From an uncultured Bacteroidota bacterium (GTDB lineage Bacteria > Bacteroidota > Bacteroidia > Bacteroidales > WCHB1-69), in NCBI GenBank assembly GCA_902786595.1, contig CADADB010000018.1, forward strand, positions 1 through 47,508: a stretch of DNA of 47,508 bases, written 5' to 3'. This document shows, in pieces, positions 4,774 through 44,642 of this stretch (position 1 is the first letter of the stretch; each line of letters begins with the position of its first letter). The position numbers were made by a program, and so were the translations under genes. The notes under the pieces are model-generated. The model saw only the letters and a list, made by a program, of their open reading frames with translations, did no database searches and was not told the origin of the DNA.

Positions 4774-4844
4774 TCACTGTTCACTGATCACTGATCACTA
4801 TTAAACAATAAACAATAAACTATAAACTATAAACCATAAAGTAT
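4774..4844. repeat. two adjacent heptamer arrays (TCACTGA)4 and (AAACTAT)6
   Basis: 4774-4801 holds four 7-bp units (TCACTGT, TCACTGA, TCACTGA, TCACTAT). One base later 4803-4844 holds six units (AAACAAT x2, AAACTAT x2, AAACCAT, AAAGTAT). The last unit runs into the kbl start codon ATG at 4843. Confidence 0.85.
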
Positions 4845-6033
4845 GTACACCAATTTCCAACAACATCTTCAGAAAGAATTGGCCGACATCAAGGAAGCCG
4901 GCTTGTACAAGAACGAACGCATCATCGCTTCCCCGCAAAGCGGTGAGATCACGCTGCAGGACGGCAGCAAGGTGCTGAACTTCTGCGCCAACAACTACCT
5001 GGGCCTCGCCAACGACGCGCGTCTGATTGCCGCCGCCAAGGAAGCCCTCGACACCCACGGTTACGGCATGGCCTCCGTGCGTTTCATCTGCGGCTGCTCT
5101 GACCTGCACAAAGCCCTGGAGAAGAAAATCGCTGAATTCTTTGGCACGGAGGACACCATCCTCTACGCCGCCTGCTTCGACGCCAACGGCGGTGTCTTCG
5201 AGCCCCTGCTCACCGACCAGGACGCCATCATCTCCGATGCCCTCAACCACGCCTCCATCATCGACGGCGTGCGTCTCTGCAAGGCGATCCGCTACCGTTA
5301 CAAAAACGCTGACATGGCTGACCTCGAGGAACAACTGAAAGCCGCTCAGGCACAGCGTTTCCGCATCATCGTCACCGACGGCGTGTTCAGCATGGACGGC
5401 AACGTCTGCCCGCTCGACAAGATTTACGAACTGGCTCAGAAATACGACGCCATGGTCATGGTTGACGAGTCTCACTCCGCCGGCGTGGTGGGCAACACCG
5501 GTCGCGGCGTGACCGAGCGCTACAACCTGCGCGGCAAGATCGAGATCCTCACCGGTACGCTGGGCAAGGCCTTCGGCGGCGCTATCGGCGGTTTCACCAC
5601 CGGTAAAAAGGAAATCATTGATATGTTGCGTCAACGCTCCCGTCCGTACCTGTTCTCCAACTCCATTCCTCCGATGGTGGCCGCTGCCGGCTGCAAGATG
5701 GTTGACATCATGTCGGAGACTAACGAGCTGCAGGACAAGCTGCACAGCAACACCGAATATTTCGTGGCCAAGATGAAATCCGCCGGTTTCGACATCAAGC
5801 CGACCGAGTCCGCCATCTGCGCCGTGATGCTGTATGACGCCAAACTGTCACAGGTGATGGCCGCCAAACTGCAGGAGGAAGGCATCTACGTCACCGGTTT
5901 CTACTATCCTGTGGTACCGAAAGACCAGGCCCGTATCCGCGTGCAGATTTCCGCCGCCCACGAGCCCGAGCACCTCGACAAGTGCATCGCCGCCTTCACC
6001 AAGATCGGCAAGGAACTCGGCGTGCTGAAATAA
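4843..6033 (+). CDS. kbl: glycine C-acetyltransferase (2-amino-3-ketobutyrate CoA ligase)
   Basis: 396 residues, the usual length of Kbl (398 in E. coli). It is an alpha-oxoamine synthase of fold-type I PLP enzymes: N-terminal NFCANNYLGLAND, PLP-site region VMVDESHSAGVVG, and the Schiff-base lysine in TGTLGKAFGGAIGG near residue 242. The enzyme converts 2-amino-3-oxobutyrate and CoA to glycine and acetyl-CoA, the second step of threonine breakdown. The partner gene tdh is not in the window, so the enzyme may act with a Tdh encoded elsewhere. Related synthases (8-amino-7-oxononanoate synthase, serine palmitoyltransferase) are less likely given the closely Kbl-like N-terminus. A terminator follows at 6064-6094. 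Confidence 0.93.
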   Translation: MYTNFQQHLQKELADIKEAGLYKNERIIASPQSGEITLQDGSKVLNFCANNYLGLANDARLIAAAKEALDTHGYGMASVRFICGCSDLHKALEKKIAEFFGTEDTILYAACFDANGGVFEPLLTDQDAIISDALNHASIIDGVRLCKAIRYRYKNADMADLEEQLKAAQAQRFRIIVTDGVFSMDGNVCPLDKIYELAQKYDAMVMVDESHSAGVVGNTGRGVTERYNLRGKIEILTGTLGKAFGGAIGGFTTGKKEIIDMLRQRSRPYLFSNSIPPMVAAAGCKMVDIMSETNELQDKLHSNTEYFVAKMKSAGFDIKPTESAICAVMLYDAKLSQVMAAKLQEEGIYVTGFYYPVVPKDQARIRVQISAAHEPEHLDKCIAAFTKIGKELGVLK

Positions 6034-6036
6034 TTT

Positions 6037-6064
6037 GCAATTAGAAATTCGTAATTAGTAATTG
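6037..6064. repeat. heptamer array GTAATTA, four units
   Basis: Units GCAATTA, GAAATTC, GTAATTA, GTAATTG begin three bases after the kbl stop codon and end at the terminator stem. Confidence 0.65.
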
Positions 6065-6094
6065 GAGGATGACGGAAGTTGTCCTCCTTTTTTT
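6064..6094 (+). terminator. intrinsic terminator of kbl
   Basis: Stem 6064-6073 with 6078-6087 (GGAGGATGAC / GTTGTCCTCC, two G-U pairs), loop GGAA, then seven T at 6088-6094. Confidence 0.75.
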
Positions 6095-7069: not shown

Positions 7070-7070
7070 A

Positions 7071-11112: not shown

Positions 11113-11154
11113 TAGAATTAAGAATTAAGAATTAAGAATTATGAATTATGAATT
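11113..11154. repeat. heptamer array AAGAATT, six units
   Basis: Units TAGAATT, AAGAATT x3, ATGAATT x2 begin at the base next to the start codon of the beta-mannosidase gene and fill most of its short leader. Confidence 0.85.
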
Positions 11155-11165
11155 AAACAGTGGGG

Positions 11166-11311: not shown

Positions 11312-11564
11312 ATGAAGGAACAAAAAAGTCATTCTCCTGAACTGATAAGCAGACCTTTAGTCACTAGAGCTTCTCAGGAAAATGACGAAGCAAAAATAAT
11401 ATACGAAAGAAAAATTAAATAGTCTTGCCGAACCCCAGTTCCCTCAAATAGCACTATCATTGGCAAGGTTCTTTGACTCGGGCGAATATGTGGACACCAC
11501 CGACGTGGCGAAGGTGAACTTTTCGCCTGAGCCTCCGCCCGCCAGCGCAACTACTAACTGCTAA
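11312..11564 (+). pseudogene. possible decayed gene in the 456-bp spacer
   Basis: The spacer 11113-11568 has no intact gene. At 11312 an ATG opens a 36-codon frame (MKEQKSHSPELISRP...) ending at 11422. The +1 frame is open from 11400 to the stop at 11562-11564 and reads with coding-like composition (ALSLARFFDSGEYVDTTDVA). A single frameshift would join them into about 84 residues. No family is recognised. It may be the remnant of a lost gene, or a chance frame. The stretch 11175-11311 holds nothing I can name. Confidence 0.25.
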
Positions 11565-11568
11565 CTCC
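11548..11568. repeat. short heptamer array TAACTRC, three units
   Basis: Units CAACTAC, TAACTGC, TAACTCC directly precede, on the plus strand, the stop codon (11569-11571) of the beta-helix protein gene. Confidence 0.55.
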
Positions 11569-14007
11569 TCACCGTTTCACCACCTTTCTCACCGCAACAA
11601 CATTCCCTTCCGCCATGGTCTTGACGAAATATATGCCGGGCGCTAAGGGCGAGAGGTCGATTTGGGTTTGTCCGGATAAACCATCTGCGTCCGTTTGTAA
11701 GGGCGAAGGATTATTCGCCTCTACACCGTCCGTTGTCCGTAATAACCGCCCGAACGCGTCATACACATGAATTTCCAACGCCCTCGCCTGTACATTGTTC
11801 ATTTGTACATTGACAACGCCGGTGGTTGGGTTAGGCCAGACGTTGACGGGGGACACCGCATAATCGGAAATTCCCACGGGTTCTGTCACTTGGAGGATTT
11901 TCATCACATTCGGGGCGGCCATGTATTGGTCGTTGCCGGGCTGCGTGGCGGTAATGATGGCCAAACCGATGTTATGCATCGTCAGGATGCTGCCATTGAT
12001 GGTGGCTACGCTCTCGTCGCTGCAGGTGAACTGCACGGGCAGACCGGAGGTGGCGGCAGCGGCGAGCACGACGGGATTGTCACTCAGCGGGAAGGAAAGC
12101 TCTTGCTCCCACAAGATGCTCTGCTCTTGGAGTTCGGGGGCGGTGCTCGTCACGGTGAGGATTTTAGAGACGGGCGCGGCGGCGTTCCAGCTGGCGTTGC
12201 CGGCTTGCGCGGCAGTGATGATAGCGTAGCCGGGAGCGTGCAACGTGAGCACGTTGCCGTTCACCGTGGCGATGTTTTCGTCGTTACTGGTGTAAGTGAC
12301 GGGGAGTCCGGAAGTGGCGGTTGCATTGAGCGTCAGTGTGCCATCAGCGAGGTCGGCGGCCAGCTCTTGGTTCCACGTGATGGATTGGTTAAAGGTGGTG
12401 TTGGCCGACTCGAAAGCCCCGATGTCGGCGATGTTGTTGCCGATGCGCGGGTTGCCGTCCATGTCCGTGGCGGGCAGGTAGGTGATGAACGCGGTGTTGG
12501 GGTCACCGGCGTCAATCAGCGGCGAGTTGGGCAGCACGTGCCAGTCGGCGACGAGGTTCGAAAGGTCCGTGGCAATGGTCGTGGCACCCACCATAGACGA
12601 CGGTGCGACAAACAAGGGTTGCGTCAGTGAATCCAGCACGATGTTGGTGCTATCTGCAGCGAAATCGCTGGTCGGATTTGTTTCGCTGGCACAATAGGTG
12701 TATGGCATAGCGTAACTGGTGGACCATCTGCTGTTGGAGACCGTACTGCCGCGCTTGTTGTTCCAGGCCACCGTGTTCTTGATCGTCGCCGCCTTGACGG
12801 TTCGGATGCCTCCAGTGCCGTTGGTATAGGCGGTCTGCGCGAGGTTGTTGGCCACCACGCAGTTGGTCATAAATAACCGTCCCACAGGATCACCGGTGTT
12901 GCTGGAGGATGTAGAAGTTCCATTGGCATACGATGCCACACCGCCGGTCACATCGATGCCCTCGGTGGAAATGGCGCTGTTGTTGGCAATCACACAGCCC
13001 AAAATATGCGTGGTGTGTGTATATACGCTGACACCGCCGGCAATGAACGGCCAACTGTTGTCATCGCTGGGAACGGTGGCGGTGGTATAAACGGTGTTGT
13101 CGATGATGCGCGAGTTGAGGATCCTCCACTCGCATTTTGTCTTGGCATAGTCAAAATCATTGCTCTGCGTGAGGATGCCGCCAGCCTTGGCCGTCAGCCC
13201 GGAAGCAACATTCTTCACAACGTCACAATTGTTTACAATGATATAATTGGTTGTAGTATAAGCATACGTGTTGAACATCATCCCGCCAAACTGGCTGCCG
13301 GTGTTTTCCGCAATCACACAGTTGTCGAATTCAAACGTGGCACCATAGGTCTGGCTGCCGTTGTACATTTGCACACCTCCGTTGGTCGTGTTTCCATTTA
13401 TCTTGCAGTCTGAAACTTGAAAGGTGGAACTATAGTACGAGTTGGAATACTCCATTCCCAAATACATACCACAAGCATTATCTGTCATGGTGCAGTTCGA
13501 AATCATGTGTGTATTGTTGGCTACGTCACGGATACCGTACTGATTACCCCCTGTCACATAAAAACCGTCAAAATCGACGGGCCGGCAATGATAGGTGCCG
13601 TTATAGGAAAAGTAACTGTTGATTTGGACAGCGTAATTGCTGTTGTGCTGGGCGTCGATGATGGAGCAGGAACTGTCGGAGGCGATGCCGTAGGAGAGCG
13701 GTTGTCGCTCGTACAGGTATGCCTCTGTGCCTGCGAAACCGCCATACACGTGCGTGCCGTTCTTGATGATGCAGGCCGGATAAGTGCCTGCCGCCACAAA
13801 CACAGAGTCGTCGTTGGGCGAGGTGATGAGCGCCATCGCCCCGTTGATGGTGGCCTTGGCGGTCGCCCACGAAAGGCCGTTGTTGTTGTCATCCCCTTGG
13901 TTTGAGACGAAATAGGTGGTCTGCGCCTCCAATAAACCGAAAAACAACATTACGGTTGTGAAAACAATTGCACGTTCAAAAGCATTATTCCTCATCTTTA
14001 TTAACAT
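11569..14007 (-). CDS. T9SS-secreted beta-helix (choice-of-anchor Q type) protein
   Basis: 812 residues from the ATG at 14007; MRNNAFERA at 13995 is an alternative start. A signal peptide ends near FGLLEAQ. The stretch TTYFVSNQGDDNNNGLSWAT and about 450 residues of short Asn/Gly-rich turns (VNNCDVVKNV, NCVVANNLAQ) look like a right-handed parallel beta-helix. Two BIG2-like repeats follow (SGLPVTYTSNDENIATVNG, SGLPVQFTCSDESVATING). The C-terminus is a T9SS type A sorting domain: VWPNPTTGVVNVQMNN ... VYDAFGRLLRTT ... LSPLAPGIYFVKT. It is therefore exported to the cell surface or medium by T9SS. Beta-helix proteins often bind or cut polysaccharides, but no catalytic residues could be assigned. 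Confidence 0.85.
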   Translation of the reverse strand: MLIKMRNNAFERAIVFTTVMLFFGLLEAQTTYFVSNQGDDNNNGLSWATAKATINGAMALITSPNDDSVFVAAGTYPACIIKNGTHVYGGFAGTEAYLYERQPLSYGIASDSSCSIIDAQHNSNYAVQINSYFSYNGTYHCRPVDFDGFYVTGGNQYGIRDVANNTHMISNCTMTDNACGMYLGMEYSNSYYSSTFQVSDCKINGNTTNGGVQMYNGSQTYGATFEFDNCVIAENTGSQFGGMMFNTYAYTTTNYIIVNNCDVVKNVASGLTAKAGGILTQSNDFDYAKTKCEWRILNSRIIDNTVYTTATVPSDDNSWPFIAGGVSVYTHTTHILGCVIANNSAISTEGIDVTGGVASYANGTSTSSSNTGDPVGRLFMTNCVVANNLAQTAYTNGTGGIRTVKAATIKNTVAWNNKRGSTVSNSRWSTSYAMPYTYCASETNPTSDFAADSTNIVLDSLTQPLFVAPSSMVGATTIATDLSNLVADWHVLPNSPLIDAGDPNTAFITYLPATDMDGNPRIGNNIADIGAFESANTTFNQSITWNQELAADLADGTLTLNATATSGLPVTYTSNDENIATVNGNVLTLHAPGYAIITAAQAGNASWNAAAPVSKILTVTSTAPELQEQSILWEQELSFPLSDNPVVLAAAATSGLPVQFTCSDESVATINGSILTMHNIGLAIITATQPGNDQYMAAPNVMKILQVTEPVGISDYAVSPVNVWPNPTTGVVNVQMNNVQARALEIHVYDAFGRLLRTTDGVEANNPSPLQTDADGLSGQTQIDLSPLAPGIYFVKTMAEGNVVAVRKVVKR

Positions 14008-14066
14008 ATCTGTAAAAAAATTATGGACTTCTGTTATTCGTACTTGAGGTGACTTCTGTTTTTTTT

Positions 14067-14097
14067 ATTCTTAATTTTTAATTCTTAATTCTTAATT
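14067..14097. repeat. heptamer array ATTCTTA at the nitroreductase 3' end
   Basis: Units ATTCTTA, ATTTTTA, ATTCTTA, ATTCTTA, then ATTCACA, whose bases 14097-14099 are the TGA stop of the nitroreductase gene on the minus strand. On that strand the unit is TAAGAAT, the same family as the array at 11113. Confidence 0.8.
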
Positions 14098-14876
14098 CAC
14101 ATCGCAAACCCCTGCCGCTCCAGCGTCTCCTTCAGCACCTGCGCGAAATGCTCGTTGTCGGGCTGGGTGTAGCGGTGCTTGGTGAAGACCTGCGCGAGAT
14201 TGTCGCAGTCGGGGTTCTCTTTGAGGATGTTGGCGGTCTCCTCGGAGTTCTCCTTCTCGCGGTAGCACTCGTCGATGCGCTGCTCGTCGTAGTCGCGGTA
14301 AACCTCCCGATGCACAAAGGTCTCTACCGGCAGCTTCTGCGTCAGCGCGGGCCTCTTCACGGGGTAGCCCATCGGGATGCAGGCCACGGGGATGACGTGC
14401 CGGGGCAACTGCAGCGCCTCCACGAACTTATCGACGTTGTAGGTGATGGTGCCGAGCCAGACGAAGCCGAGTCCGAGGGCTTCGGCGGCCACACAGGCGT
14501 TCTGCGCGGCGATGAGCGCGTCGGTGACAGCCCAGTGGTAGCTCTGCAAGTTGCTGTAAGCTTCCGTGTTGGCATTGCGGAACCGGCAGTACTGGTTGAA
14601 GCGGCGGAAGTCGGCGCAGAAGGTGAGGATCACCGGCGCAGAGGTCGCCATCGGCTGGTTGAAGTGGTAGGGAGCGAGCTTGGCCTTCATTTGCTCGTCG
14701 CGGGTCACAATGACGCTGAACAGCTGCATGTTGCCCATCGTGGAGCCGCTGCACGCCGCCTTGAGGATCAGGTTCAGGGTTTCCTCTTCCACGGGGCGGT
14801 CGCTGTACTCGCGCACGCTGACGTGGTTGAAGAGGGTTTCCAATGTGGGGTTATAAGCGGATTCGATTTTACTCAT
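14097..14876 (-). CDS. nitroreductase family protein (NfsA/FRP-like)
   Basis: 259 residues. The N-terminal FNHVSVREYSDRPVEEETL is the usual nitroreductase FMN-binding opening (RSxRxF/Y type), followed by ACSGSTMGNMQLFSVIV and the late GFVWLGTITYN and PVACIPMGYPVKRP blocks. Length and C-terminal extension fit the NfsA/FRP group, flavoenzymes using NAD(P)H to reduce quinones, flavins or nitro compounds. The physiological substrate is not predictable. It lies downstream of the carboxyltransferase-family gene but is separated from it by a terminator at 14902-14926. The stop codon falls in a heptamer array. Confidence 0.85.
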   Translation of the reverse strand: MSKIESAYNPTLETLFNHVSVREYSDRPVEEETLNLILKAACSGSTMGNMQLFSVIVTRDEQMKAKLAPYHFNQPMATSAPVILTFCADFRRFNQYCRFRNANTEAYSNLQSYHWAVTDALIAAQNACVAAEALGLGFVWLGTITYNVDKFVEALQLPRHVIPVACIPMGYPVKRPALTQKLPVETFVHREVYRDYDEQRIDECYREKENSEETANILKENPDCDNLAQVFTKHRYTQPDNEHFAQVLKETLERQGFAM

Positions 14877-16838: not shown

Positions 16839-16873
16839 GTTCAAAGGTCAAACTTCAAAGTTCAAGATTTAAG
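16839..16873. repeat. heptamer array GTTCAAA, five units
   Basis: Units GTTCAAA, GGTCAAA, CTTCAAA, GTTCAAG, ATTTAAG end nine bases before the -7 box at 16882. Confidence 0.7.
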
Positions 16874-18468: not shown

Positions 18469-18524
18469 TGGTTATTGGTTATTAACCATTGGCTATTAGC
18501 TATTAGCTTTTGGCTATTAGCTGT
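18469..18524. repeat. heptamer array TGGCTAT, eight units
   Basis: Units TGGTTAT x2, TAACCAT, TGGCTAT, TAGCTAT, TAGCTTT, TGGCTAT, TAGCTGT. The array begins at the very base after the stop codon. The same family recurs at 30137 and 44601. Confidence 0.88.
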
Positions 18525-21220: not shown

Positions 21221-21308
21221 ATGAGACGATGAGGCGATAAAACGATGAAGCGATGAAGCGATGAAACGATGAAACGATGAAGCGATGAAACGATGAGACT
21301 ATGATTCG
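21221..21308. repeat. octamer array ATGAARCG, eleven units
   Basis: Eleven 8-bp units (ATGAGACG, ATGAGGCG, ATAAAACG, ATGAAGCG x2, ATGAAACG x2, ATGAAGCG, ATGAAACG, ATGAGACT, ATGATTCG) start one base after the receptor stop codon. The reverse complement of this family lies at 21991-22038. Confidence 0.88.
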
Positions 21309-21317
21309 TCTAAATCA

Positions 21318-21347
21318 TAGTTATAGTTATAGTCACAGTCACAGCCA
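21318..21347. repeat. hexamer array ATAGTT/ACAGTC, five units
   Basis: Units ATAGTT x2, ATAGTC, ACAGTC, ACAGCC, between the octamer array and the palindrome at 21353. Confidence 0.65.
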
Positions 21348-21352
21348 ATAAC

Positions 21353-21388
21353 AAAAGTAGAGACATCAATTACGGTGTCTCTACTTTT
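21353..21388. terminator. bidirectional terminator with GTAGAGAC arms
   Basis: A 13-bp perfect inverted repeat (AAAAGTAGAGACA / TGTCTCTACTTTT, 10-base loop) between convergent genes; A and T runs at the stem ends allow termination both ways. It ends two bases before the stop codon of the gldH-like gene and belongs to the GTAGAGAC palindrome family. Confidence 0.75.
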
Positions 21389-21990: not shown

Positions 21991-22038
21991 TCATCTCATC
22001 ATCTTTTCATCGTCTCATCGTCTCATCGCCTCATCGTG
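21991..22038. repeat. octamer array TCATCGTC, six units
   Basis: Units TCATCTCA, TCATCTTT, TCATCGTC x2, TCATCGCC, TCATCGTG. This is the reverse complement of the family at 21221-21308, so the gldH-like gene is bracketed by inverted octamer arrays. Confidence 0.82.
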
Positions 22039-22127: not shown

Positions 22128-22769
22128 ATGGCAAAGCAACAAAAATATTACGTAGTTTGGGTAGGCAAGACTCCCGGCGTTTATGACAACTGGAACGACT
22201 GCAAGCAGCAGGTCTATCAGTTCGAGAACGCCAAGTACAAGTCTTTTGAGAACAAGGCGGAGGCCGAAGCCGCCTTCAAGCAGGGTTATGAGAAGTTCTA
22301 CAAGAGCCATCCCTCGCCCAATAACTCCGCCAAACAGCTGTTGCTCTTGCAAGACCAGCCGAAGCCGATTCTGCGAAGTTTGTCGGTGGATGCGGCATGG
22401 AATTCCGTGACGAAAGTGATGGAGTACCGCGGTGTCTATACCGAGACCGGTCAGGAGTGGTTCCACAAGGGGCCGTTCCCCCGCGCAACCAACAACGTGG
22501 GCGAGTTCCTGGCCATCGTACACGGTCTCGCCCTCATCAAGCAGAAAGGCTACGACATCCCGATCTACACCGACAGCATGACCGCCCTCTCATGGGTGCG
22601 CAAGAAGAAGCACAACTCCGTGATTCTGCCCACCGAGGAGAACGAGGAGGTCATCGACATGCTGCAACGCGCCGAGCAGTGGCTGAAGAACAACGAATAC
22701 ACCACCCCCATCTACAAGTGGAACACGCCGCTGTGGGGGGAGATTCCTGCGGATTTCGGGAGGAAGTAG
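22128..22769 (+). CDS. ribonuclease HI with N-terminal viroplasmin-like domain
   Basis: 213 residues. The N-terminal 45 residues (YYVVWVGKTPGVYDNWNDCK ... FKSFENKAEAEAAF pattern) are the viroplasmin/caulimovirus-type RNA-DNA hybrid-binding domain of eukaryotic-like RNase H. The C-terminal RNase H fold has the acidic residues in SVDAAWN, NNVGEFLAIVHGLAL and IYTDSMTALSWV. It cuts RNA in RNA:DNA hybrids during replication and repair. This two-domain form is common in Bacteroidota. The gene has its own -7 box and is followed at once by a GACTGAG heptamer array. Confidence 0.9.
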   Translation: MAKQQKYYVVWVGKTPGVYDNWNDCKQQVYQFENAKYKSFENKAEAEAAFKQGYEKFYKSHPSPNNSAKQLLLLQDQPKPILRSLSVDAAWNSVTKVMEYRGVYTETGQEWFHKGPFPRATNNVGEFLAIVHGLALIKQKGYDIPIYTDSMTALSWVRKKKHNSVILPTEENEEVIDMLQRAEQWLKNNEYTTPIYKWNTPLWGEIPADFGRK

Positions 22770-22818
22770 GACTGAGGACTGAGGACTTGAGACTGAGGAC
22801 TGGGGACTATGGACTTTG
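22770..22818. repeat. heptamer array GACTGAG, seven units
   Basis: Units GACTGAG x2, GACTTGA, GACTGAG, GACTGGG, GACTATG, GACTTTG, starting at the base after the RNase H stop. The array at 32114-32176 is the same family in reverse complement. Confidence 0.88.
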
Positions 22819-22854: not shown

Positions 22855-22943
22855 GTTGTTTGAATACAATAAAACGCTATTTCCTATCGTTGTATTCCAA
22901 CAAATCATTGTTCATTTTTATTTTTTATTTATTTATGATATTT

Positions 22944-26388: not shown

Positions 26389-26420
26389 TTTTTGTTGTTT
26401 ATTTGTTGATTTGTTTTTTT

Positions 26421-26455
26421 TATTTGTGATTTGTGACTTGTGATTTGTGATTTGA
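26421..26455. repeat. heptamer array GATTTGT, five units
   Basis: Units TATTTGT, GATTTGT, GACTTGT, GATTTGT, GATTTGA in the leader of fbaA. The array at 34067-34108 uses the related unit GATTTGA/GATTTAC. Confidence 0.78.
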
Positions 26456-26473
26456 AGCTCCCTCATCATGCAT

Positions 26474-26501
26474 CACAAGTCTCACGTCTTACGTCACACG
26501 T
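26474..26501. repeat. heptamer array CTCACGT, four units
   Basis: Units CACAAGT, CTCACGT, CTTACGT, CACACGT, just downstream of the fbaA -7 box on the minus strand. Confidence 0.7.
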
Positions 26502-26517
26502 CATCCCATCGGACGCG

Positions 26518-26541: not shown

Positions 26542-26562
26542 AATTATGAATTATGAATTCTT
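26542..26562. repeat. heptamer array AATTATG, three units
   Basis: Units AATTATG x2, AATTCTT. Bases 26551-26553 within the second unit are the stop codon of the next minus-strand gene. Confidence 0.65.
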
Positions 26563-26925: not shown

Positions 26926-27358
26926 GCTGACCTCCTTTCTGGGATGCGTATTCATCCTCCACATCCTTAATGAGATTCTCGGACTCTACCTCTTCCACCT
27001 CATCGGGATACATGATACGGCTGAACTTGCGGAGAAGCGGTTTCACGAAAAGGACATCTTTCTTGGAAAACACGAAGACAATGACGGCGACGAATAAGGC
27101 GCACAATATTGTGTATGCCCATGCCGCACCTATGGCCAGTGTTAACCAATGTATAACGGCAGATGAGAGGTAAATCAGCACCACCAAAGCGCACACGATG
27201 ATAATCAACATGGAGAAAATCACCGACAGCAGCTGTGTGGATTTTTCAAGGAACTCCAACTTCAGCAAATCGTAACGCTGCGAGAAGTACGTTTTGGCAT
27301 CCTTCCACGTCTTCTCGCTGCGTTCCGATTTTTTTGTGAATTTACCTAAAATGTCCAT
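26912..27358 (-). CDS. phage holin family (Holin-X-like) membrane protein
   Basis: 148 residues. A charged N-terminal helix (KTWKDAKTYFSQRYDLLKLE) is followed by two membrane helices (about 45-70 and 78-98) and an acidic C-terminal tail. This layout is that of the phage holin superfamily III/Holin-X domain proteins found on bacterial chromosomes beside YtxH-domain genes, which are not lysis proteins of a resident phage. It overlaps the downstream gene by 14 bp and follows the YtxH-like gene by 35 bp, so the three are probably one operon. Confidence 0.72.
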   Translation of the reverse strand: MDILGKFTKKSERSEKTWKDAKTYFSQRYDLLKLEFLEKSTQLLSVIFSMLIIIVCALVVLIYLSSAVIHWLTLAIGAAWAYTILCALFVAVIVFVFSKKDVLFVKPLLRKFSRIMYPDEVEEVESENLIKDVEDEYASQKGGQHEQQ

Positions 27359-27393: not shown

Positions 27394-27642
27394 TTAAAGC
27401 ACCTCATCCTGGATTTCCTTTTCAAAATCGTCATCTTCGATGTCGATGTTGAAATCATCCTCAGAGGGAGCGCATGCACGTTTCTCTTTCAGTTTGGCGA
27501 TAATGCGGTCGATTTCCTCGCGGGTCATTTTCTCGCCCACCTTCTGGCGGATTTCCTTACCTTTTTCTGTTGTGCACAACAAGGTGATTCCTGTAGCTGC
27601 GGCAGCTCCTGCCACGAATGCTAAAATTTCTGAAGCTTTCAT
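27394..27642 (-). CDS. YtxH domain-like protein
   Basis: 82 residues from the ATG at 27642 (MKASEILAFVAGAAAATGIT). A single N-terminal glycine/alanine-rich membrane segment with LCTTEKGKEIRQKVGEK is the typical YtxH pattern; the C-terminus is highly acidic (EDDFNIDIEDDDFEKEI). The in-frame ATG at 27804 lies in repeat-rich DNA and is rejected. YtxH-like proteins are linked to general stress in Bacillus. First gene of the three-gene membrane cluster. Confidence 0.75.
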   Translation of the reverse strand: MKASEILAFVAGAAAATGITLLCTTEKGKEIRQKVGEKMTREEIDRIIAKLKEKRACAPSEDDFNIDIEDDDFEKEIQDEVL

Positions 27643-27746
27643 TTTTTTGTACTTTTTTTGGTGATTTATTTTTTCTGTTGTTCCCACACTGCGCTTCGCA
27701 TATGTGGGGTTATTTGCACTTCGTGCGTCTTGCCCCTTACCCCCCT

Positions 27747-27775
27747 GCCCTTCGGGCATCCCCCCTAAAGGGGGG
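27747..27775. repeat. paired GC hairpins in the rel downstream spacer
   Basis: GCCC-TTC-GGGC at 27747-27757 and CCCCCC-TAAA-GGGGGG at 27760-27775. No T run follows on either strand, so a canonical terminator is unlikely, though it could still stop or stabilise the rel mRNA. The rest of 27643-27802 has no gene. Confidence 0.65.
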
Positions 27776-27802
27776 TATGGTCCTTCGACCGTATTATTCT
27801 TC

Positions 27803-27823
27803 ATTCTTAATTCTTAATTCTTA
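27803..27823. repeat. heptamer array ATTCTTA at the rel 3' end
   Basis: Three ATTCTTA units; the last supplies the TAA stop of rel (27821-27823 on the minus strand). Same family as 14067-14097. Confidence 0.8.
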
Positions 27824-30073
27824 ATTGACATCGTACCCAATCCGTTCCACGGACTCCATCTGGTCAATCTGGCGGAGTTGTTCGATGAGGTTATTCAGTG
27901 TTCTGACACTCTGGATGTAAAGCATCAGCGTGCCGGTAAAGACATTGTTTTTGGTCTCAATGTTTAACGAGCGGATGTTCAAATCCATCTGGGAGGTGAT
28001 CACGTCCATCATCTCTTTGATGATGCCCTTGCGGTCGAAACCTTTGAGCTTGATGCCAGACAGGAAAGCGATGTTCTGGCCTTTGCGCCACTTGGTCTTG
28101 ATGATGCGGTTGCCGAAGCGCGACATCTGCGAGATGGCGTTCGGGCAGCTGGTCTGGTGCACCACAATGCGGTTGTCCGACACCTGGAAGCCCACCACGG
28201 TGTCGCCGGGAATCGGGTTGCAACAGTCGGCCAGCACATACTTGATCTGCTCATAGTCATCGTCGAGCAGAAACGCATTCGGCGTCACGTTCATCTGCTC
28301 GTCGATAAGCTGGTTCAAGGGCTTGCTGTCAATCTCCTGCGTCACCTTCTGCTGGAAGTCGGCAAGTTCCTTGGCATTCTTCACCGACAAGAGTTTCGAG
28401 ATCTTTTGCTTTGTCAGTTTCTTGGAAACCACGCTGTTCCAAAAATCCTGCGGATTCTTCTCCAAAGAGGCGTCCATCAATTTACGGACATTCTCTTCGG
28501 TAAATTCCACCCCCAGCTCATCAAAATACTGTTTCAAGAGCAGTTTTCCGGATGAAACCAGCTCGTGCTGCTCGTTCCTAAAGAAATCCTTGATACTTCT
28601 GCGTGCCTTGGGGGTCTGCACAAACTCCAGCCATTCTGCCTTCGGGAACTGCTTCTTGGAGGTGATGATCTCCACTTGGTCGCCATTGCTGAGCGGCTTG
28701 TTGACCGGCGTGATGTTGTAGTTGACCTTTGCGCCAATGCAGTGGTCGCCGAGGTTGGTGTGCAGGGCGTATGCGAAATCCAGAACGGTGGACCCTTGCG
28801 GCATCGTCTTCATGTCGCCCTTCGGCGTGAAGACATAAATTTCCTTGAGTCCGAGGTTCAGCCGCACCTCGCTGAGGAAGTCGAGCGCATCGGAATCCTT
28901 GCTGTCGAGAATCTCACGGGCTTTCAACAGCCAATCTTCCAAACGGTGGTCAAGTTCGGCATCGTCCATCTCCCCGTCTTCCTTATAACGGTAATGGGCA
29001 GCCAAACCCTTCTCGGCAATCTCATCCATACGTTTGGAGCGGATCTGCACCTCCACCCAACGTCCCTGCTTGCTCATGGCGGTCACGTGCAATGACTGGT
29101 ATCCATTCGGTTTCGGGTGCGTCAGGAAGTTACGGTCGCGCATCGGGTTGGTCTTGTAAAGATCGCAGATAATGCGGTATATCTTCCAGCAAATGTCGAA
29201 TTCCTCGTACATCGGGCTGTCGAACACGAAACGCACCGCGAAGATGTCGTAAACATCCTCAAAATTGATCTGCTTGCGCAGCATCTTGTTGTAGATGGAA
29301 GACACCGACTTGGTGCGGCTGGAGATTTCAGCTTGGATGCCGGCTTTTTCCAACGCCGCCTTGATCGGAGCGATGAACTCCGGGATCATCGTGGAACGTT
29401 CCTGTTCGGAATCTTTCAGCTTTTCAGCAATAGCGAAATACTCGGTAGGGTTGGTATAGCGCATGGCGTAGTCCTCCAACTCACTCTTGATGGAGTAAAG
29501 ACCAAGACGATGAGCAAACGGGACATAGAAATACGACGTTTCGGAGGCAATCTTCAGCTGTTTTTCGTGCGGCATCGCATCCAGGGTGCGCATGTTGTGC
29601 AAGCGATCAGCCAATTTGATAAGGATGACGCGCACATCTTTCGACATGGAGAGGAAAATCTTCTTGAAATTCTCCGCCTGGATGGACATATTCTGGTTAT
29701 CGACCACCAAATCTTCGATCTTGGTCAGACCGTCAATGATGTTGGCGACCACCTCGCCGAAGAGCTCGCGCATGTCTTCAAGCGTATAATCCGTATCTTC
29801 CACCACATCGTGCAGCAGAGCGCAAATAACAGAGGTTGCACCAAGATTCATTTCGGCACAGCAGATCATGGCCACCGCTATAGGATGGTAAATGTAGGGC
29901 TCACCGCTCTTGCGACGCACCCCGAAGTGGGCATTGGTGGCCAACACAAACGCCTTGCGGATTTGCTTGCGCTCCTCCACCGTCGTCCGCGGATACACCA
30001 CCTGCAACAACTCGCGGTACTTCCGCACCACCATCTGGTTCTCTAATTGCTCATTCGGAATATATTCTTCCAT
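27821..30073 (-). CDS. rel: RelA/SpoT family bifunctional (p)ppGpp synthetase/hydrolase
   Basis: 750 residues. The N-terminal HD hydrolase carries GEPYIYHPIAVAMI and CALLHDVVEDTDYTLEDM (the HD pair). The synthetase domain has SSIYNKMLRKQINFEDVYD and GYQSLHVTAM. A TGS domain (VFTPKGDMKTMPQGSTVLDF), a middle helical and zinc-finger-like region (CCNPIPGDTVVG) and a C-terminal ACT domain (residues about 675-750) complete the long RSH form. Both active sites look intact, so it should make and degrade the stringent-response alarmone. The start at 30073 (MEEYIPNEQLENQ) is natural. The stop codon is supplied by a heptamer unit. Confidence 0.95.
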   Translation of the reverse strand: MEEYIPNEQLENQMVVRKYRELLQVVYPRTTVEERKQIRKAFVLATNAHFGVRRKSGEPYIYHPIAVAMICCAEMNLGATSVICALLHDVVEDTDYTLEDMRELFGEVVANIIDGLTKIEDLVVDNQNMSIQAENFKKIFLSMSKDVRVILIKLADRLHNMRTLDAMPHEKQLKIASETSYFYVPFAHRLGLYSIKSELEDYAMRYTNPTEYFAIAEKLKDSEQERSTMIPEFIAPIKAALEKAGIQAEISSRTKSVSSIYNKMLRKQINFEDVYDIFAVRFVFDSPMYEEFDICWKIYRIICDLYKTNPMRDRNFLTHPKPNGYQSLHVTAMSKQGRWVEVQIRSKRMDEIAEKGLAAHYRYKEDGEMDDAELDHRLEDWLLKAREILDSKDSDALDFLSEVRLNLGLKEIYVFTPKGDMKTMPQGSTVLDFAYALHTNLGDHCIGAKVNYNITPVNKPLSNGDQVEIITSKKQFPKAEWLEFVQTPKARRSIKDFFRNEQHELVSSGKLLLKQYFDELGVEFTEENVRKLMDASLEKNPQDFWNSVVSKKLTKQKISKLLSVKNAKELADFQQKVTQEIDSKPLNQLIDEQMNVTPNAFLLDDDYEQIKYVLADCCNPIPGDTVVGFQVSDNRIVVHQTSCPNAISQMSRFGNRIIKTKWRKGQNIAFLSGIKLKGFDRKGIIKEMMDVITSQMDLNIRSLNIETKNNVFTGTLMLYIQSVRTLNNLIEQLRQIDQMESVERIGYDVN

Positions 30074-30136
30074 GCTTCTTTTTCTTCTCTTCTCAACAGA
30101 TTAATTGTTTTGCAAATATTGTGCCGATTTTGCTGT

Positions 30137-32113: not shown

Positions 32114-32176
32114 TTCCTCAGTCCTCAGTCCTCAGTCCTCAGTCCCCAGTCCTCAGTCCTCAGCCCTCAGTCCTTA
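32114..32176. repeat. heptamer array GTCCTCA, nine units
   Basis: Units TTCCTCA, GTCCTCA x3, GTCCCCA, GTCCTCA x2, GCCCTCA, GTCCTTA. Bases 32167-32169 are the TGA stop of the dnaX tail frame. Reverse complement of the family at 22770. Confidence 0.9.
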
Positions 32177-34055: not shown

Positions 34056-34066
34056 CATTTTTTTAC

Positions 34067-34108
34067 GATTTGAGATTTGAGATTTACGTTTTTCGATTTA
34101 CGATTTAC
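34067..34108. repeat. heptamer array GATTTGA/GATTTAC, six units
   Basis: Units GATTTGA x2, GATTTAC, GTTTTTC, GATTTAC x2. Bases 34098-34100 are the stop codon of the metallopeptidase gene, so its last codons (VRKS) are written in repeat units. Confidence 0.82.
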
Positions 34109-34649
34109 GAACCGCCATGCGCGTCGCCTTCCGCGCCTCCTTCCAACGCGGAAAATAGCGGTCCATCAGCGCGTGGAACTTCGGACCGTGATTGGCTTCG
34201 ATAAGATGCGCAAGTTCATGAACCACAACGTGTTCCACACACCAATCAGGCAACAGCAACAGATAGGTGCTGAACTGGATGGTCCCCGTTTTCTTGTTGC
34301 AGGAGCCCCATCGGGAAATCGTGGGCTTGTAGGTGATTTTGGTGGGTTGAACCCCCATCAAAGCGGTGTATTTCAACAACAGGGGTCTCAACATTTCATC
34401 CAGTCGTTCAACTGCCTCCTGGACCTGCTCTTTGGTCTCCAACGGCAACTGTGCATAGAAATTGTAACGTTTCGCATTGACGTCTGCCACCTTCCGCATC
34501 GCCTGCGCGATCCAGGCCTCGTTGTCCTGCACAAACCGCATCACCGTTTTCTTGGATGTAAGATACGGGGCGGTCACATGCAGGTCGCCATTGCTAACCA
34601 CGCGCATCGACATGCGCCGTGTCCGCCTGTAGGTTATTTTGATGTTCAT
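34098..34649 (-). CDS. YgjP-like (M48/DUF45) metallopeptidase
   Basis: 183 residues from the ATG at 34649 (MNIKITYRRTRRMSMRV); an in-frame ATG at 34664 is less likely. The zinc motif VVHELAHLIEANHGPKFHAL (HExxH with third ligand His) is at about 135-155, preceded by RWGSCNKKTGTIQF, a signature of the YgjP/SprT-like group. Members have been linked to nucleotide pyrophosphohydrolysis as well as peptidase activity, so activity is uncertain. Probably cytoplasmic. It follows two small envelope proteins and a sirtuin on the same strand. Confidence 0.85.
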   Translation of the reverse strand: MNIKITYRRTRRMSMRVVSNGDLHVTAPYLTSKKTVMRFVQDNEAWIAQAMRKVADVNAKRYNFYAQLPLETKEQVQEAVERLDEMLRPLLLKYTALMGVQPTKITYKPTISRWGSCNKKTGTIQFSTYLLLLPDWCVEHVVVHELAHLIEANHGPKFHALMDRYFPRWKEARKATRMAVRKS

Positions 34650-34672
34650 TTTTTGGTGGGTCAAGGGAGAGA

Positions 34673-34700
34673 GGGGTAAGGGGTAAGGGTAATGGGTTAG
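34673..34700. repeat. heptamer array GGGGTAA, four units
   Basis: Units GGGGTAA x2, GGGTAAT, GGGTTAG, overlapping the last bases of the minus-strand gene that ends at 34697. Confidence 0.72.
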
Positions 34701-35194
34701 GTTTCAAATCTTATTGTCGTGCTATGGAACAGTGTGTCGCGGGCAACGATTATAAAAAAGCATTCGTAGGGCATGTTGCGATAGAGGTCACGGAGTTTGA
34801 CGCGGGCGGCATTTCGTCGCAAAGTGGCATCCACCGTATTCCACACCTCTTCTCCGAGTGAGCGATAGCATAGCACCGCACGGCGGCAGGGAGGTGCAGA
34901 CTCGTCTAAACGGCAGCGGAAGGTCACCGTAGGATGAGCACCGGCAAGCGGGCTCCAACGGTTCTCCACAAGGACGTCTTCCGCGGTGAAATGGATCATC
35001 GGGGATCCTTTTTCCTGATCTCCTACCGGACTTTCCTGTTCTCTCCGTGCTTTTTCACGCGCATTCGACTCCATCTGATGTTGTAAAAAAAGGATAAGGC
35101 ACAGCAGAAACGCTGCGCCCACAAACACCCACAGCCACGGACTTCGTGCCGTAGAGAATGCTTTCTTATCCGAACGAGGGACAATGGCTCCCAT
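34697..35194 (-). CDS. single-pass membrane protein, unknown
   Basis: 165 residues from the ATG at 35194 (MGAIVPRSDKKAFSTARSPW), one base after the stop of the upstream lipoprotein gene; an upstream in-frame ATG at 35254 lies in that gene. One membrane helix (WLWVFVGAAFLLCLILFL, about 20-38), a charged linker (REKARREQESPVGDQEKG) and a beta-rich periplasmic domain with RWSPLAGAHPTVTFRCRL and LRDLYRNMPYECFFIIVARD. No domain recognised. Coupled to the lipoprotein gene, suggesting joint envelope function. Confidence 0.7.
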   Translation of the reverse strand: MGAIVPRSDKKAFSTARSPWLWVFVGAAFLLCLILFLQHQMESNAREKARREQESPVGDQEKGSPMIHFTAEDVLVENRWSPLAGAHPTVTFRCRLDESAPPCRRAVLCYRSLGEEVWNTVDATLRRNAARVKLRDLYRNMPYECFFIIVARDTLFHSTTIRFET

Positions 35195-36333: not shown

Positions 36334-36340
36334 TTATTAA

Positions 36341-36393
36341 TGGTTATGGGTTATGGGTTATTGGTTATTGAGGGTTATTGGTTATTGGTTATT
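36341..36393. repeat. heptamer array GGTTATT, seven units in two blocks
   Basis: Units TGGTTAT, GGGTTAT x2, TGGTTAT (36341-36368), four bases, then GGTTATT x3 (36373-36393). The array fills the gap between the sirtuin start and pfkA; bases 36389-36391 are the TAA stop of pfkA. The same unit opens the array at 18469. Confidence 0.87.
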
Positions 36394-42052: not shown

Positions 42053-44350
42053 TTACTTCAGTATCACCCTCACTCCAACGTACCCCATGATTCCCGTAAC
42101 CGGCTTATACACCATCGTGGCGTCGAAATATTCGCCGAAGGGGTTCTCGGCCTGCACGATCGGGTCCTTCTGCTTGACGTTGAGGAGGTTTTCCGCGCCG
42201 GCATAGATCTCCCACTTGCGGAACTTCTTGGTAATCTGCGCAGCGAGCAGACAGTAGGGTTTCGAGACTTCGGGACGGCGGTACGGCTCGGGGTTGCTCT
42301 GCGTGTTGGGCAGCGGCATCGGACCGTAAATCTGGCAGTTGAGGTTGAATTTCCACTTGTCGTACGGGGTGCTGTAGTTGAGATTGACTAGCGCCTTGTG
42401 CGGACTCATCATGTCCTTCTTCCGCATCACACCCTGGCGCATGTAACGGACATCGTTATAGCGGTAGGCCAACAGGATCTCAAAACGCTGCAACGGCTTA
42501 AGGGTCAACTCGACCTGCGCGGAATGCGAGCGCGAGCGGTTGTGATAGCCGTTGTATTCGCCGTTCAAGGCATAGTAATGCACCGCATGGACATCCTGAT
42601 CCAAATCCACAATCATCTGCTGCACAAAGTAAGTGTAGAAATAATCGACTGCCAACGAAGCTTTTCCACCTGGCATATTGAACTGCCAAACCGCACTTGC
42701 TCCGGCGTTCCAAGCCTCCTCAGGACTGGAATGTCCATCGAAATGGAGGGTGCGCGAGGAGAGCATCAAAGACTGGTTCTCAGCGAAGAAATGGGCGTTG
42801 CGGTAGCCCTTGCCGGCAGATGCGCGTAACGACAGATCCTTGGTGGCCTGCCATTTAAGGTGCACTCGCGGCGTCCAGAAGAGCTGGTTGACACTTGACC
42901 ACAACGAGGAATACTGTTTGTCGCGTACCATATTGTAATCCAAGCGCATACCGGCCATCACCACCAATTTCGGGTCTATGATATAGGCATATTCGGCAAA
43001 AACACCGGGAATCAGATCGTGGTGATGCGGTCTGAAATAATAATACAAATCCCCACCGTCCTCGTAGAGTTCATTCAAACAATCATACTGTAAACTGGCA
43101 CCTGCCGTCAGTTTATGTCGCTCGCTCACACCGAATTTATTGGAATACAACACATTAGCATACACACCATATTGGTCTCCACTATAAAGAGCGCCATTGC
43201 CGTAACGTGAATCCAGCCAATGTCCTGTAAAGGAGAGGATGGTGCCGATGCTCTCGTGCTCACCCTTCAACAGGAAACCATTTTTTGTGATGACATCCAT
43301 ACGTTTGTTATCGGAAATAAAACCGTACGGATCACTATAGCGATACTCAAAGCTGCTCGGCGTGAAGCCCATCTGCCCACCGAAACGGTTGTCCCACACG
43401 AAATCGATCATTGTGCGACCCTCCACCACGGGCGACTTGTAGTCCCACCGGTTCATCACATTGACCTGACGGCTGCGCGGGGCGTCCATGAAACCGTCGT
43501 GGTTCATGTCCATCTTCACAAATTGGTCGGCGAGGAATACGAGAAAGTTGGTGCTAACCTTGTCCTTCTTTCCCACGGGAATGCGGGTGTTCATGGCCAG
43601 TTCGCCCTTGCCCATCGAATTGGCGTAGAAGTTCATGAAGAAACGTTCCAAATTGGACTCCGGCTTTTTGTAATCCACATTAATCTGACCCGTGATGGCC
43701 TCGAAACCATTCACCACGGAGGATGTCCCCTTCGACAAGCTGATGGACTCCATCCACGAACCGGGGATGAAACCAAGGCCGAACTGGTGCGACAAAAGAC
43801 GAATGTAGGGCACGTTTTCCAGCAGAATCTGGCTATAGGTGCCTGCGAGTCCGAGCATGGAAATTTGTCTCGCTCCGCTCACCGCGTCGGGGAACTCGGA
43901 GTCGATGGCCACACTGCTCTCGAAACTTTCGGCGAGGTTGCAGCAGGCGGCACGACGCAGTCCTTCCGTCCCAATAACCTGGGTATAAATAGGTTGCACG
44001 GAGATATAGGAGCCGTCGCGAGCCACAATGCTCACCTCGTTGAGGTTATGGGCGGTATTCAGGAAGAAAGTCAGCCCATCTTGTCCGCGAGGGATCACCA
44101 TGGTGTCCGGCAGGAATGTCGGGAACGAGATGACCAGCGTGTCCGTCTTGGTGCGCGGGATGGAGAACTTGCCGGCCGCATCCGTATGGGTCCCTATGGA
44201 CGTTCGCGACCACTGCACGGCAGCATTCGCCACCGCAACCGTGTCACCGTTCTCCCCGATTTGGAACACCTTGCCCGTCAACGTGGATTGAGCACTCCCC
44301 CATCCCACCAGAGCCAACAGCACCCCAATCAGTACATACTTCCGCATCAT
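42053..44350 (-). CDS. TonB-dependent receptor
   Basis: 765 residues from the ATG at 44350 (MMRKYVLIGVLLALVGWGSA); the next ATG at 44347 is equally possible, and an upstream TTG at 44356 is rejected because it lies in the heptamer array. A carboxypeptidase-regulatory-like domain at about 20-100 (GKVFQIGENGDTVAVANAAV), then a plug with RRAACCNLAESFESSVAIDS and ISMLGLAGTYSQILLENVP, then a barrel ending in GYVGVRVILK. The conserved CCNL(A/S)ESFE motif marks a Bacteroidota receptor group often seen near metal-handling genes, so a metal complex could be the ligand; weak inference. No SusD gene adjacent; downstream of pspC. Confidence 0.88.
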   Translation of the reverse strand: MMRKYVLIGVLLALVGWGSAQSTLTGKVFQIGENGDTVAVANAAVQWSRTSIGTHTDAAGKFSIPRTKTDTLVISFPTFLPDTMVIPRGQDGLTFFLNTAHNLNEVSIVARDGSYISVQPIYTQVIGTEGLRRAACCNLAESFESSVAIDSEFPDAVSGARQISMLGLAGTYSQILLENVPYIRLLSHQFGLGFIPGSWMESISLSKGTSSVVNGFEAITGQINVDYKKPESNLERFFMNFYANSMGKGELAMNTRIPVGKKDKVSTNFLVFLADQFVKMDMNHDGFMDAPRSRQVNVMNRWDYKSPVVEGRTMIDFVWDNRFGGQMGFTPSSFEYRYSDPYGFISDNKRMDVITKNGFLLKGEHESIGTILSFTGHWLDSRYGNGALYSGDQYGVYANVLYSNKFGVSERHKLTAGASLQYDCLNELYEDGGDLYYYFRPHHHDLIPGVFAEYAYIIDPKLVVMAGMRLDYNMVRDKQYSSLWSSVNQLFWTPRVHLKWQATKDLSLRASAGKGYRNAHFFAENQSLMLSSRTLHFDGHSSPEEAWNAGASAVWQFNMPGGKASLAVDYFYTYFVQQMIVDLDQDVHAVHYYALNGEYNGYHNRSRSHSAQVELTLKPLQRFEILLAYRYNDVRYMRQGVMRKKDMMSPHKALVNLNYSTPYDKWKFNLNCQIYGPMPLPNTQSNPEPYRRPEVSKPYCLLAAQITKKFRKWEIYAGAENLLNVKQKDPIVQAENPFGEYFDATMVYKPVTGIMGYVGVRVILK

Positions 44351-44372
44351 TATCAATTATCAATTATCAATT
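44349..44372. repeat. heptamer array ATTATCA, three units
   Basis: Three perfect ATTATCA units plus ATT between the TonB receptor start codon and the pspC stop at 44371. Confidence 0.75.
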
Positions 44373-44574
44373 ACTCGTTGAGCATCTCGTTTTCCACCGG
44401 CAGGATAATCCAGCAGATCAGATAGAACCAGAATCCCATCGTGCCAAAAAGCAGCAGCAACACGAAAAGGATGCGCCACACGTTGGAATCCACATCGAAA
44501 TATTTGCCCAAACCACCGCAAATTCCGGCGATTTTGGAATCGGTTTTGCTTCTCATCAAAGTTTTGTGTGCCAT
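44371..44574 (-). CDS. PspC domain protein
   Basis: 67 residues. RSKTDSKIAGICGGLGKYFD is the PspC signature, followed by one membrane segment region (WRILFVLLLLFGTMGFWFYL) and a short acidic tail. In E. coli PspC belongs to the phage-shock envelope-stress response; stand-alone short forms are common in Bacteroidota. It precedes the TonB receptor by 20 bp and likely shares the promoter at 44643-44650. Confidence 0.9.
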   Translation of the reverse strand: MAHKTLMRSKTDSKIAGICGGLGKYFDVDSNVWRILFVLLLLFGTMGFWFYLICWIILPVENEMLNE

Positions 44575-44600
44575 AATACTATTGATTTGTTGGTAAATTA

Positions 44601-44642
44601 TTAGCTAATGGCTGTTGGCTTTTAGCTATTGGCTTTTGGCTG
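44601..44642. repeat. heptamer array TTGGCTT/TTAGCTA, six units
   Basis: Units TTAGCTA, ATGGCTG, TTGGCTT, TTAGCTA, TTGGCTT, TTGGCTG in the leader of pspC, directly downstream of its -7 box. Same family as 18469 and 30137. Confidence 0.85.

Follow-up and report, generated by a model that had tools for sequence, protein, structure and literature searches.

The window analysed here is a stretch of 47,508 nucleotides, contig C18 of a 2.84-Mb draft assembly of an uncultured Bacteroidota bacterium (Bacteroidales, WCHB1-69; below, the own genome), and all positions without a contig name are window positions. Short tandem arrays, most of them made of 7-bp units, lie mostly in the gaps between its genes and typically adjoin stop or start codons. 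The own and related sequences are drafts, mostly metagenome assemblies, in which repeats may be shortened, and gene calls are simple open reading frames (ORFs). Places and periods of the window arrays were taken from Tandem Repeats Finder (TRF), with significance judged against 300 local dinucleotide shuffles. The arrays are as follows (no strand is assigned except where one is given; G021 and G022 are two related species):

4773..4799: period-7 array ATCACTG, 3.9 copies, gap 4576-4842 (TRF, shuffles); in the orthologous G021 gap TTGAACT is the only array found
4802..4840: period-7 array AAACTAT/AAACAAT, 5.6 copies, stopping 2 bp short of the start codon at 4843
6031..6063: period-7 array of AATTAGT type, starting within the stop codon of the + gene that ends at 6033; retained in G021
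11114..11156: period-7 array AGAATTA, 6.1 copies, 1 bp upstream of the start of the - gene 8530-11112; near-identical arrays stand at many other loci of genome G009
11549..11569: three AACTNCT units, weak, seen by eye; a longer tested span is not significant
14061..14098: period-7 array ATTCTTA, extending into the end of the - gene 14097-14876
16839..16865: period-7 array GTTCAAA in a divergent gap; CTCAAAG in G022
18469..18522: composite array at a stop codon (TRF, shuffles, comparison with G021), in which an ATAACC element, whole in G021, is reduced to two units and followed by GGCTATT/AGCTATT units
21221..21304: 8-bp array ATGAAACG, 10.5 copies, adjoining a stop codon (TRF) at which G021 carries a 7-bp AATTAAG array instead
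21317..21333: short 6-bp array ATAGTT (TRF)
21999..22037: 8-bp array TCATCGTC (TRF)
22768..22808: period-7 array GACTGAG, starting within the stop codon of the + gene that ends at 22769
26401..26454: period-7 array ATTTGTG, within the called ORF 25309-26469, close to the ORF start
26473..26503: period-7 array of CACGTCT type (TRF, shuffles)
26542..26559: period-7 array AATTATG, overlapping the end of the - ORF 26551-26964
27796..27826: period-7 array ATTCTTA, taking in the SpoT stop codon
30132..30162: period-7 array of GGCTATT type, between a subtilase gene and the SpoT promoter-like stretch
32115..32174: period-7 array GTCCTCA, 8.6 copies (TRF, shuffles); AAGGTCA in G021, GTCCTCA in G022
34062..34110: period-7 array GATTTAC, the same unit in both G021 and G022
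34672..34701: period-7 array AGGGGTA (TRF, shuffles)
36339..36372, - strand: one of 87 own-genome copies of TTC(NATAACC)4ATT, with one mismatch, 5 bp from the start (36333) of a - gene; more GGTTATT units follow up to 36393
44349..44373: period-7 array ATTATCA at the start of a - gene, an exception to the polarity described below
44601..44641: period-7 array of GGCTATT/GGCTTTT type (TRF, shuffles)

An earlier, sequence-only reading had listed 20 array places, and 19 of them show period-7 arrays in TRF, with an identity between bases seven apart (lag-7 identity) that 0/300 local dinucleotide shuffles matched. At the remaining place, 11548, three units (AACTACT AACTGCT AACTCCT) can be seen by eye, but the longer span was reached by 60/300 shuffles. 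The two 8-bp arrays (21221-21304 and 21999-22037) and the single 6-bp array (21317-21333) of that reading were recovered as well. By our ORF calls, its 'about twenty' intergenic gaps reduce to 15 that contain or adjoin the 20 places, several of them holding two, and the array that it placed between genes at 26421 sits inside a called ORF, close to the ORF start. No Rfam match at the gathering score was found within the window.

The signal extends beyond the window. In a sample of 447,508 bases of the own genome (35,543 of them intergenic by a simple ORF caller), lag-7 runs of at least 12 matches number 58 in intergenic DNA and five in coding DNA, and 10 dinucleotide shuffles of the intergenic sequence yield 0.1 on average; intergenic runs of the same length number nine for lag 8, three for lag 6 and none for lag 5. 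After lags 7, 14 and 21, the next run counts are those of lag 8 (nine runs) and its double, lag 16 (10 runs). At a TRF score of 30, the sample holds 115 intergenic period-7 arrays against 2.2 in five shuffles, and 19 in coding DNA. The period-7 excess that the sequence-only reading proposed is therefore nearly restricted to intergenic DNA, which is the excess that marks intergenic heptamer simple sequence repeats (SSRs; long SSRs of 5-11 nt). Since it lies far above the shuffled level and is present outside the window, neither of the two outcomes that the same reading had named as speaking against itself (a frequency no higher than in shuffled intergenic DNA, or absence from the rest of the genome) was observed.

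Position of the arrays and their turnover between species

Arrays adjoin gene borders and are rare in divergent (promoter) gaps. Around 342 stops, lag-7 identity is 0.25 in coding sequence, 0.31-0.33 over the last ten bases, 0.38 at the stop codon and 0.40 right after it, and declines to 0.33 at +40 to +60; here lags 5 and 9 show no rise and lags 6 and 8 hardly any. In the Chlorobi lag-7 identity does not rise past stops. Before 359 starts the value is 0.34-0.38, dropping to 0.27 at the start codon. Fifty-four of the 108 stop-end arrays start at -4 to +3 of the stop end and 40 contain the whole stop codon, and 22 of the 64 start-end arrays finish 0-3 bp from the start codon. Arrays are found at 79/376 tandem stops, 26/178 convergent stops, 50/376 tandem starts and 11/216 divergent starts, and in 126 of the 146 gaps that hold border arrays only a single end is occupied.

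We compared 106 orthologous gap pairs with the two related species (genes ∼88% identical; some own gaps are compared with both). Arrays stand in both members of 35 pairs, in one member of 11 and in neither member of 60. The best-matching units of the 35 shared pairs are identical in 15 cases, 1-2 bases off in 11 and unrelated in nine, against 3, 26 and 70%, respectively, for random pairing, and alignments show one family swapped for another at one and the same stop codon. The period and position that the sequence-only reading took to be conserved in place of sequence do outlast the sequence, but the units are not unrelated, as families recur across loci and species.

A wider comparison is available for SpoT, with fifteen kin loci (L021-L035; 82-97% identity) from uncultured Bacteroidales/Bacteroidetes, several of them from rumen or abomasum. 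The gap upstream of SpoT holds an array in nine of 14 readable kin (runs of period 6-8 being marked), none of the family found in the own genome; at the SpoT stop, six of 13 readable kin gaps have an array, built of the own unit in L031 and of different units in the remaining five. A promoter-like stretch upstream of SpoT, cggcacaatatttgcaaaac (window ∼30105-30131), is recognizable by eye in all 14 kin gaps (L021-L034); it resembles cggcacaat..ttgcaaaac and, in contrast to it, the neighbouring arrays change. Beside the 27796 array, dispersed repeats of ∼56 and ∼90 bp (window 27683-27826) have dozens of copies in G009, G021 and G022, and ORF 27394-27804 as called probably runs too far, through these repeats.

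The simplest idea of the sequence-only reading was a common slippage or copying mechanism with a 7-bp step. In the slippage form of this idea, replication would slip preferentially by 7 nt, with arrays neutral between genes and purged from genes and promoters; a slippage idea of Mrazek (2007) is likewise cited in the available parts of PMC4692102 and PMC4679880. Indels in arrays with matching flanks are multiples of 7 in 10/17 cases (elsewhere 0/34, for indels ≥5 bp), as such slippage would have it, and the whole stop codons inside arrays and the seldom used divergent starts (11/216 against 79/376 tandem stops) agree with it too. Loss of mismatch repair is rejected as a cause, with MutS family matches in 21/21 genomes searched; as MutS family proteins are present, slippage needs no such loss, and 7-nt loops are poor substrates for mismatch repair. 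Slippage does not predict the polarity at both borders, the inverted pairs, the units shared with other classes or the ATAACC runs of exactly four units, all described below. Because polarity, inverted pairs, family replacement and the fixed ATAACC element go unexplained by it, slippage alone is insufficient, and we regard it as an unlikely answer even though its 7-bp step is borne out by the array indels.

Polarity and inverted pairs

Read outward from the gene, array strands carry more G than C in a ratio of 90:16 at stop ends and 52:11 at start ends; these sets take in orthologous arrays of related species, which are not fully independent, and the own genome alone gives 39:6 and 31:8. A flip control, restricted to arrays whose class survives in-place reversal, retains the bias (stops 60:10, starts 39:5), so that the polarity is not made by ORF calling and a gene-calling artefact is ruled out as its source. 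The stop codon within the array is also rejected as the sole source, as arrays that begin after the stop still give 36:9. Polarity is 138:23 at ≤15 bp from the border and absent (5:5) more than 80 bp away. When start and stop arrays of one family are paired, the same strand faces outward in 162/203 pairs. In distant genomes, lightly sampled and chosen by pattern matches, the outward bias is 13:2 at stops and 5:3 at starts. Among 61 start-end arrays, one has ATG in its sense unit and 12 have it in the antisense unit, and avoidance of G and of start codons could explain the polarity at starts.

Such symmetry about the gene is what one would expect of functional insulators, in which the G-poor, C-bearing strand reading into the gene yields Rho-loading (rut-like) RNA that halts transcription entering from either end. 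Rut sites are C-rich and G-poor. The gap classes are ordered by strength of polarity (convergent stops 25:1, tandem starts 43:6, tandem stops 62:15, divergent starts 8:3), and seven of the nine kin arrays upstream of SpoT, beside the promoter-like stretch, are C-rich by eye when read into SpoT. But elements right before start codons would fall in the leader of the gene itself, the arrays are short (about 30 nt), and five congeners lack any ATAACC element. We think an insulator function unlikely.

The G strand outward could instead mean G-quadruplex elements, as discussed for the GGGAATC repeats of Xanthomonas and Nostoc (see below). At least four GG tracts run outward in 44 border arrays, against four arrays with CC tracts, and one strand of the ATAACC/GGTTAT element carries four GG tracts. 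However, the polarity is kept in arrays without any GG or CC (56:13 overall; stops 43:7; starts 13:6, which alone is not significant), and the AATTAAG, AATTATG and AGTGATT families have no GG. Two-quartet quadruplexes, moreover, are weak, and we consider this explanation very unlikely.

Among the 20 gaps arrayed at both ends (some of them orthologs of one another), 12 hold inverted pairs of one family, compared with 23% expected from other gaps. In an alignment test over all gaps, 11/164 own gaps show inverted similarity at the middle cut-off versus 0.9% in other pairings; direct repeats across the gap equal or outnumber inverted ones in G009 and in the kin loci. Where only a single array is present, inverted similarity across the gap is found in 4/67 cases (6.0%) versus 4.4% in other gaps, and at the highest cut-off in 2/67 versus 0.8%. 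That the polarity comes from halves of palindromes has thus little support (4/67 versus 4.4%).

Palindromic mobile elements, similar to repetitive extragenic palindromes (REPs) and their RAYT transposases, could have been inserted as inverted pairs of which the single arrays are halves. The inverted pairs in 12 of the 20 two-sided gaps, the hairpins that fill whole gaps (one of which belongs to a sample from another class, with 63% GC) and the presence of Y1 transposases all fit. On the other hand, 126 of the 146 border-array gaps are one-ended, with little inverted remnant opposite, and array gaps have no excess of structure over other gaps (median z -1.22, n=62, versus -1.08, n=113). The Y1 transposases are also found in relatives whose sampled DNA has no arrays, and the one on C1 is flanked by different, REP-like palindromes. 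We give a REP/RAYT-like origin hardly any credence. Y1/RAYT transposases were also rejected as the cause (matches in 21/21 genomes, the relatives with array-less sampled DNA included), as were RNA hairpins as a general feature, the array-gap z-scores not differing from those of other gaps.

The palindromes in question are dispersed, with the form CTACC(A/G)AGCT(C/T)TTGCCCCTG..CGGGGC, and occur at window ∼4665-4770 and own C1 ∼269800-271200. Similar ones, CTACCGAGCT..GGGAC, lie on both sides of the Y1 transposase ORF G000:C1:270036-270509, and because they flank it, the TTGCCCCTG/CTACCGAGCT palindromes look like the REPs of a RAYT. Palindromes of another type, GTAGAGACGTTTCATGAAACGTCTCTAC, are dispersed in intergenic DNA; they lie in many of the genome's gaps, in the window at ∼21345-21385 and 22828-22857, and their 10-mer ACGTCTCTAC is present in 19/235 gaps.

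One inverted pair surrounds a small gene on own contig C9. There a segment of ∼0.5 kb (C9 88741-89252; L111 8741-9252) is inverted relative to G021 C15:18028-18537, possibly through an assembly error, and holds a 23S rRNA IVP (PF05635) four-helix-bundle gene between inverted TTGATAA/ATTATCA arrays. We rejected this inversion as the cause of two polarity exceptions, as inverted repeats hold their polarity through inversions.

Unit families and a fixed four-unit ATAACC element

Unit families recur. Within the window, TTAATTC is seen at 11114, 14067 and 27796, the GGCTATT type at 18469, 30132 and 44601, and the GGTTATT type at 18469 and 36337. In the own sample AACCAAT, AATTATC, AAGAATT, AACCCAT, AATGGAT and AAAAGCT each occur 5-8 times, several of them also in related species, and families recur in other Bacteroidota classes as well. 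For example, in a sample of another class with 63% GC, a tandem-gene gap is a GGCTTTT-type heptamer hairpin from stop to start; this AT-rich hairpin (L260 11470-11543, genome G646) fills the gap and resembles those of the own genome.

Arrays occur patchily across genus and phylum. Period-7 arrays per intergenic kb number 2.6 in the own genome, 2.8 in the rumen kin, 1.8 in G009, 1.0 in G001, 0.6 in G005 and 0.03 in the Chlorobi (73.9 kb). Eight lightly sampled congeners range from 0 to 4; no array was found in four other loci (5.4 kb intergenic) or in four genomes from other families of the order (14.2 kb sampled). The patterns ATAACCNATAACCNATAACC and GGCTNTTNGCTNTTNGCT are present in 18/295 genomes of the order and 37/395 of the phylum. 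They match the own genome 86+91 and 78+76 times, versus 3+1 and 0+1 for a reversed-pattern control; in other genomes this control mostly gives zero matches, with a few having some (up to 18+15).

One family has a fixed form. ATAACC runs have exactly four units in 16/23 cases in the own genome and 8/9 in G021, mostly with TTC before and ATT after, giving the element TTC(NATAACC)4ATT. At ≤2 mismatches, a cut-off that trims the tail, the own genome holds 87 copies (56 perfect, 24 with one mismatch and seven with two; control 0). At ≤3 mismatches there are 100 copies in G021, 111 in G022, 64 in G010, 38 in G007, 32 in G012, 12 in G009, 10 in G002, two in G003 and three in G259 (another family), with controls of 0-4; G006 is the same genome as G022 (111 copies each, at identical places). 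At that cut-off the element is absent from five congeners, G001, G004, G005, G008 and G011. Among the first 30 own copies listed, 18 point toward starts and 12 toward stops, and 25 lie ≤12 bp from the gene they point at (16 starts, nine stops). Contingency (phase-variation) repeats would be expected beside surface or antigen genes; judging by eye from 18 protein beginnings, the genes beside copies have a mixed housekeeping look and no common function.

The N positions behave differently from the rest of the element: in a set of 34 perfect copies parsed by script, N1 is A 31 times and N2-N4 take A, C or T (no G in 102) independently of one another (there is one G in the list of 87 copies), whereas the 30 non-N sites differ at only 38/2,610 places among the 87 copies. 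Three whole copies matched to G021 by their flanks agree at 11/12 N bases, and a fourth shared copy, truncated in the own genome (window 18469), at 1/2. As shared copies keep their N bases, the N differences seem to arise at copying and not later, although the loci are few. Of three own element copies that fall in the paired gaps, G021 shares one. One free base per unit is not general: in other families 108 variable positions compare with 117 expected, with mild clustering only.

Should some unknown process actively copy TTC(NATAACC)4ATT to gene borders, facing into genes from either end and setting every seventh base anew at the birth of a copy (mostly to A, C or T), it would amount to a novel mode of writing chromosomal DNA, in which a templated hexamer and a single free base alternate four times. 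We rate the chance of this as slim.

Origin of the arrays and known heptamer repeats

The available part of PMC4692102 describes G-rich intergenic heptamers near ORFs, GGGAATC and GGGGA(C/T)T, in Xanthomonas and Nostoc, and discusses quadruplexes. As described there, those repeats resemble ours in having a G strand that faces outward at starts and stops alike, inverted pairs between convergent genes (70 and 75 in two Xanthomonas), under-representation between divergent genes, four units as the commonest number, mostly the same gene neighbours with length and sequence varying by species, and no functional gene class. The G-outward strand, the inverted pairs (12/20) and the avoidance of divergent starts (11/216) are all found here; a run of at least three G is not, as most listed units have no GGG and 70 border arrays have neither GG nor CC. 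That part of the paper also presents one G-run family per genome, whereas here there are many, a large part of them without GG; and unlike in its account, our arrays are anchored to stop and start codons, exchange one family for another and include an element of four units with free N positions.

The sequence-only reading knew of no description for Bacteroidota, which is not quite right: the available part of MacGregor (2015; PMC4679880) reports TAACTGA direct repeats, mostly just before start codons, in marine Beggiatoaceae, Cyanobacteria and five Bacteroidetes. They too are heptamers, patchy across phyla and without a common function; in F. litoralis 12/14 sets are forward before starts and one is reversed after a stop, the symmetry seen here, and other heptamers lie beside some TAACTGA sets in Gramella and Aequorivita (PMC4679880). 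TAACTGA itself is missing from the list of the 25 array units commonest in the own sample. For Calothrix, the available part of PMC4692102 mentions three heptanucleotides repeated in tandem.

Further systems share some of these traits. The STRR heptamers of cyanobacteria combine period 7 with several units in one genome, as do our arrays. REPs and BIMEs with their RAYT transposases are dispersed short intergenic repeats, sometimes forming hairpins, and the arrays are like them in this; they differ in not being built on a REP foot and hairpin, and a hairpin body with a cognate Y1 transposase was not found, array gaps being overall no more structured than others.

We read the arrays as a many-family variant of the known heptamer repeats of the GGGAATC and TAACTGA kinds. 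Heptamer border repeats as such are already known; for the many-family border arrays and the fixed ATAACC element, no description was found in the literature searched, which leaves out most subscription journals. The account that we tentatively prefer, at somewhat below even chances, is that the arrays are short intergenic elements of 7-bp units that are copied, slip in 7-bp steps and are tolerated at borders, mostly in one orientation. Copies would spread among loci by ectopic copying or by template switching between arrays, and would then slip in 7-bp steps. They would survive only where no gene or promoter is broken, mostly in the orientation in which the RNA read into the gene is G-poor and nearly free of ATG. 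A dedicated host function would be unnecessary, and insulation may be a side effect.

Several observations weigh against this account of copied and slipping elements. Before starts, lags 6 and 8 also reach 0.30-0.36, and because they are raised there too, the start side is less specific for period 7. Avoidance of G and of start codons leaves the polarity at stops without a clear reason, and convergent gaps show it most strongly (25:1). Single arrays have little more inverted similarity across the gap than other gaps do, as given above, and the near-invariance of the ATAACC element exceeds what neutral copying predicts. Finally, shared unit order beats order-shuffled arrays only for matches of 18-21 bp and not at ≥24 bp, so that segmental copying read from unit order is marginal at most.

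Earlier accounts of heptamers, as far as the available parts of PMC4692102 and PMC4679880 go, each concern one kind of unit, which is explained, apart from slippage, by quadruplexes in one case and by a unit-binding protein in the other. Here, many units in one lineage obey one border-and-polarity rule, and an explanation tied to a single unit is therefore insufficient. This border rule, together with the four-unit element and its free N, makes the question testable, whether as selection on RNA entering genes or as an unrecognized copying process, and the rapid replacement of families at fixed borders makes the rumen Bacteroidales a natural experiment in intergenic evolution.

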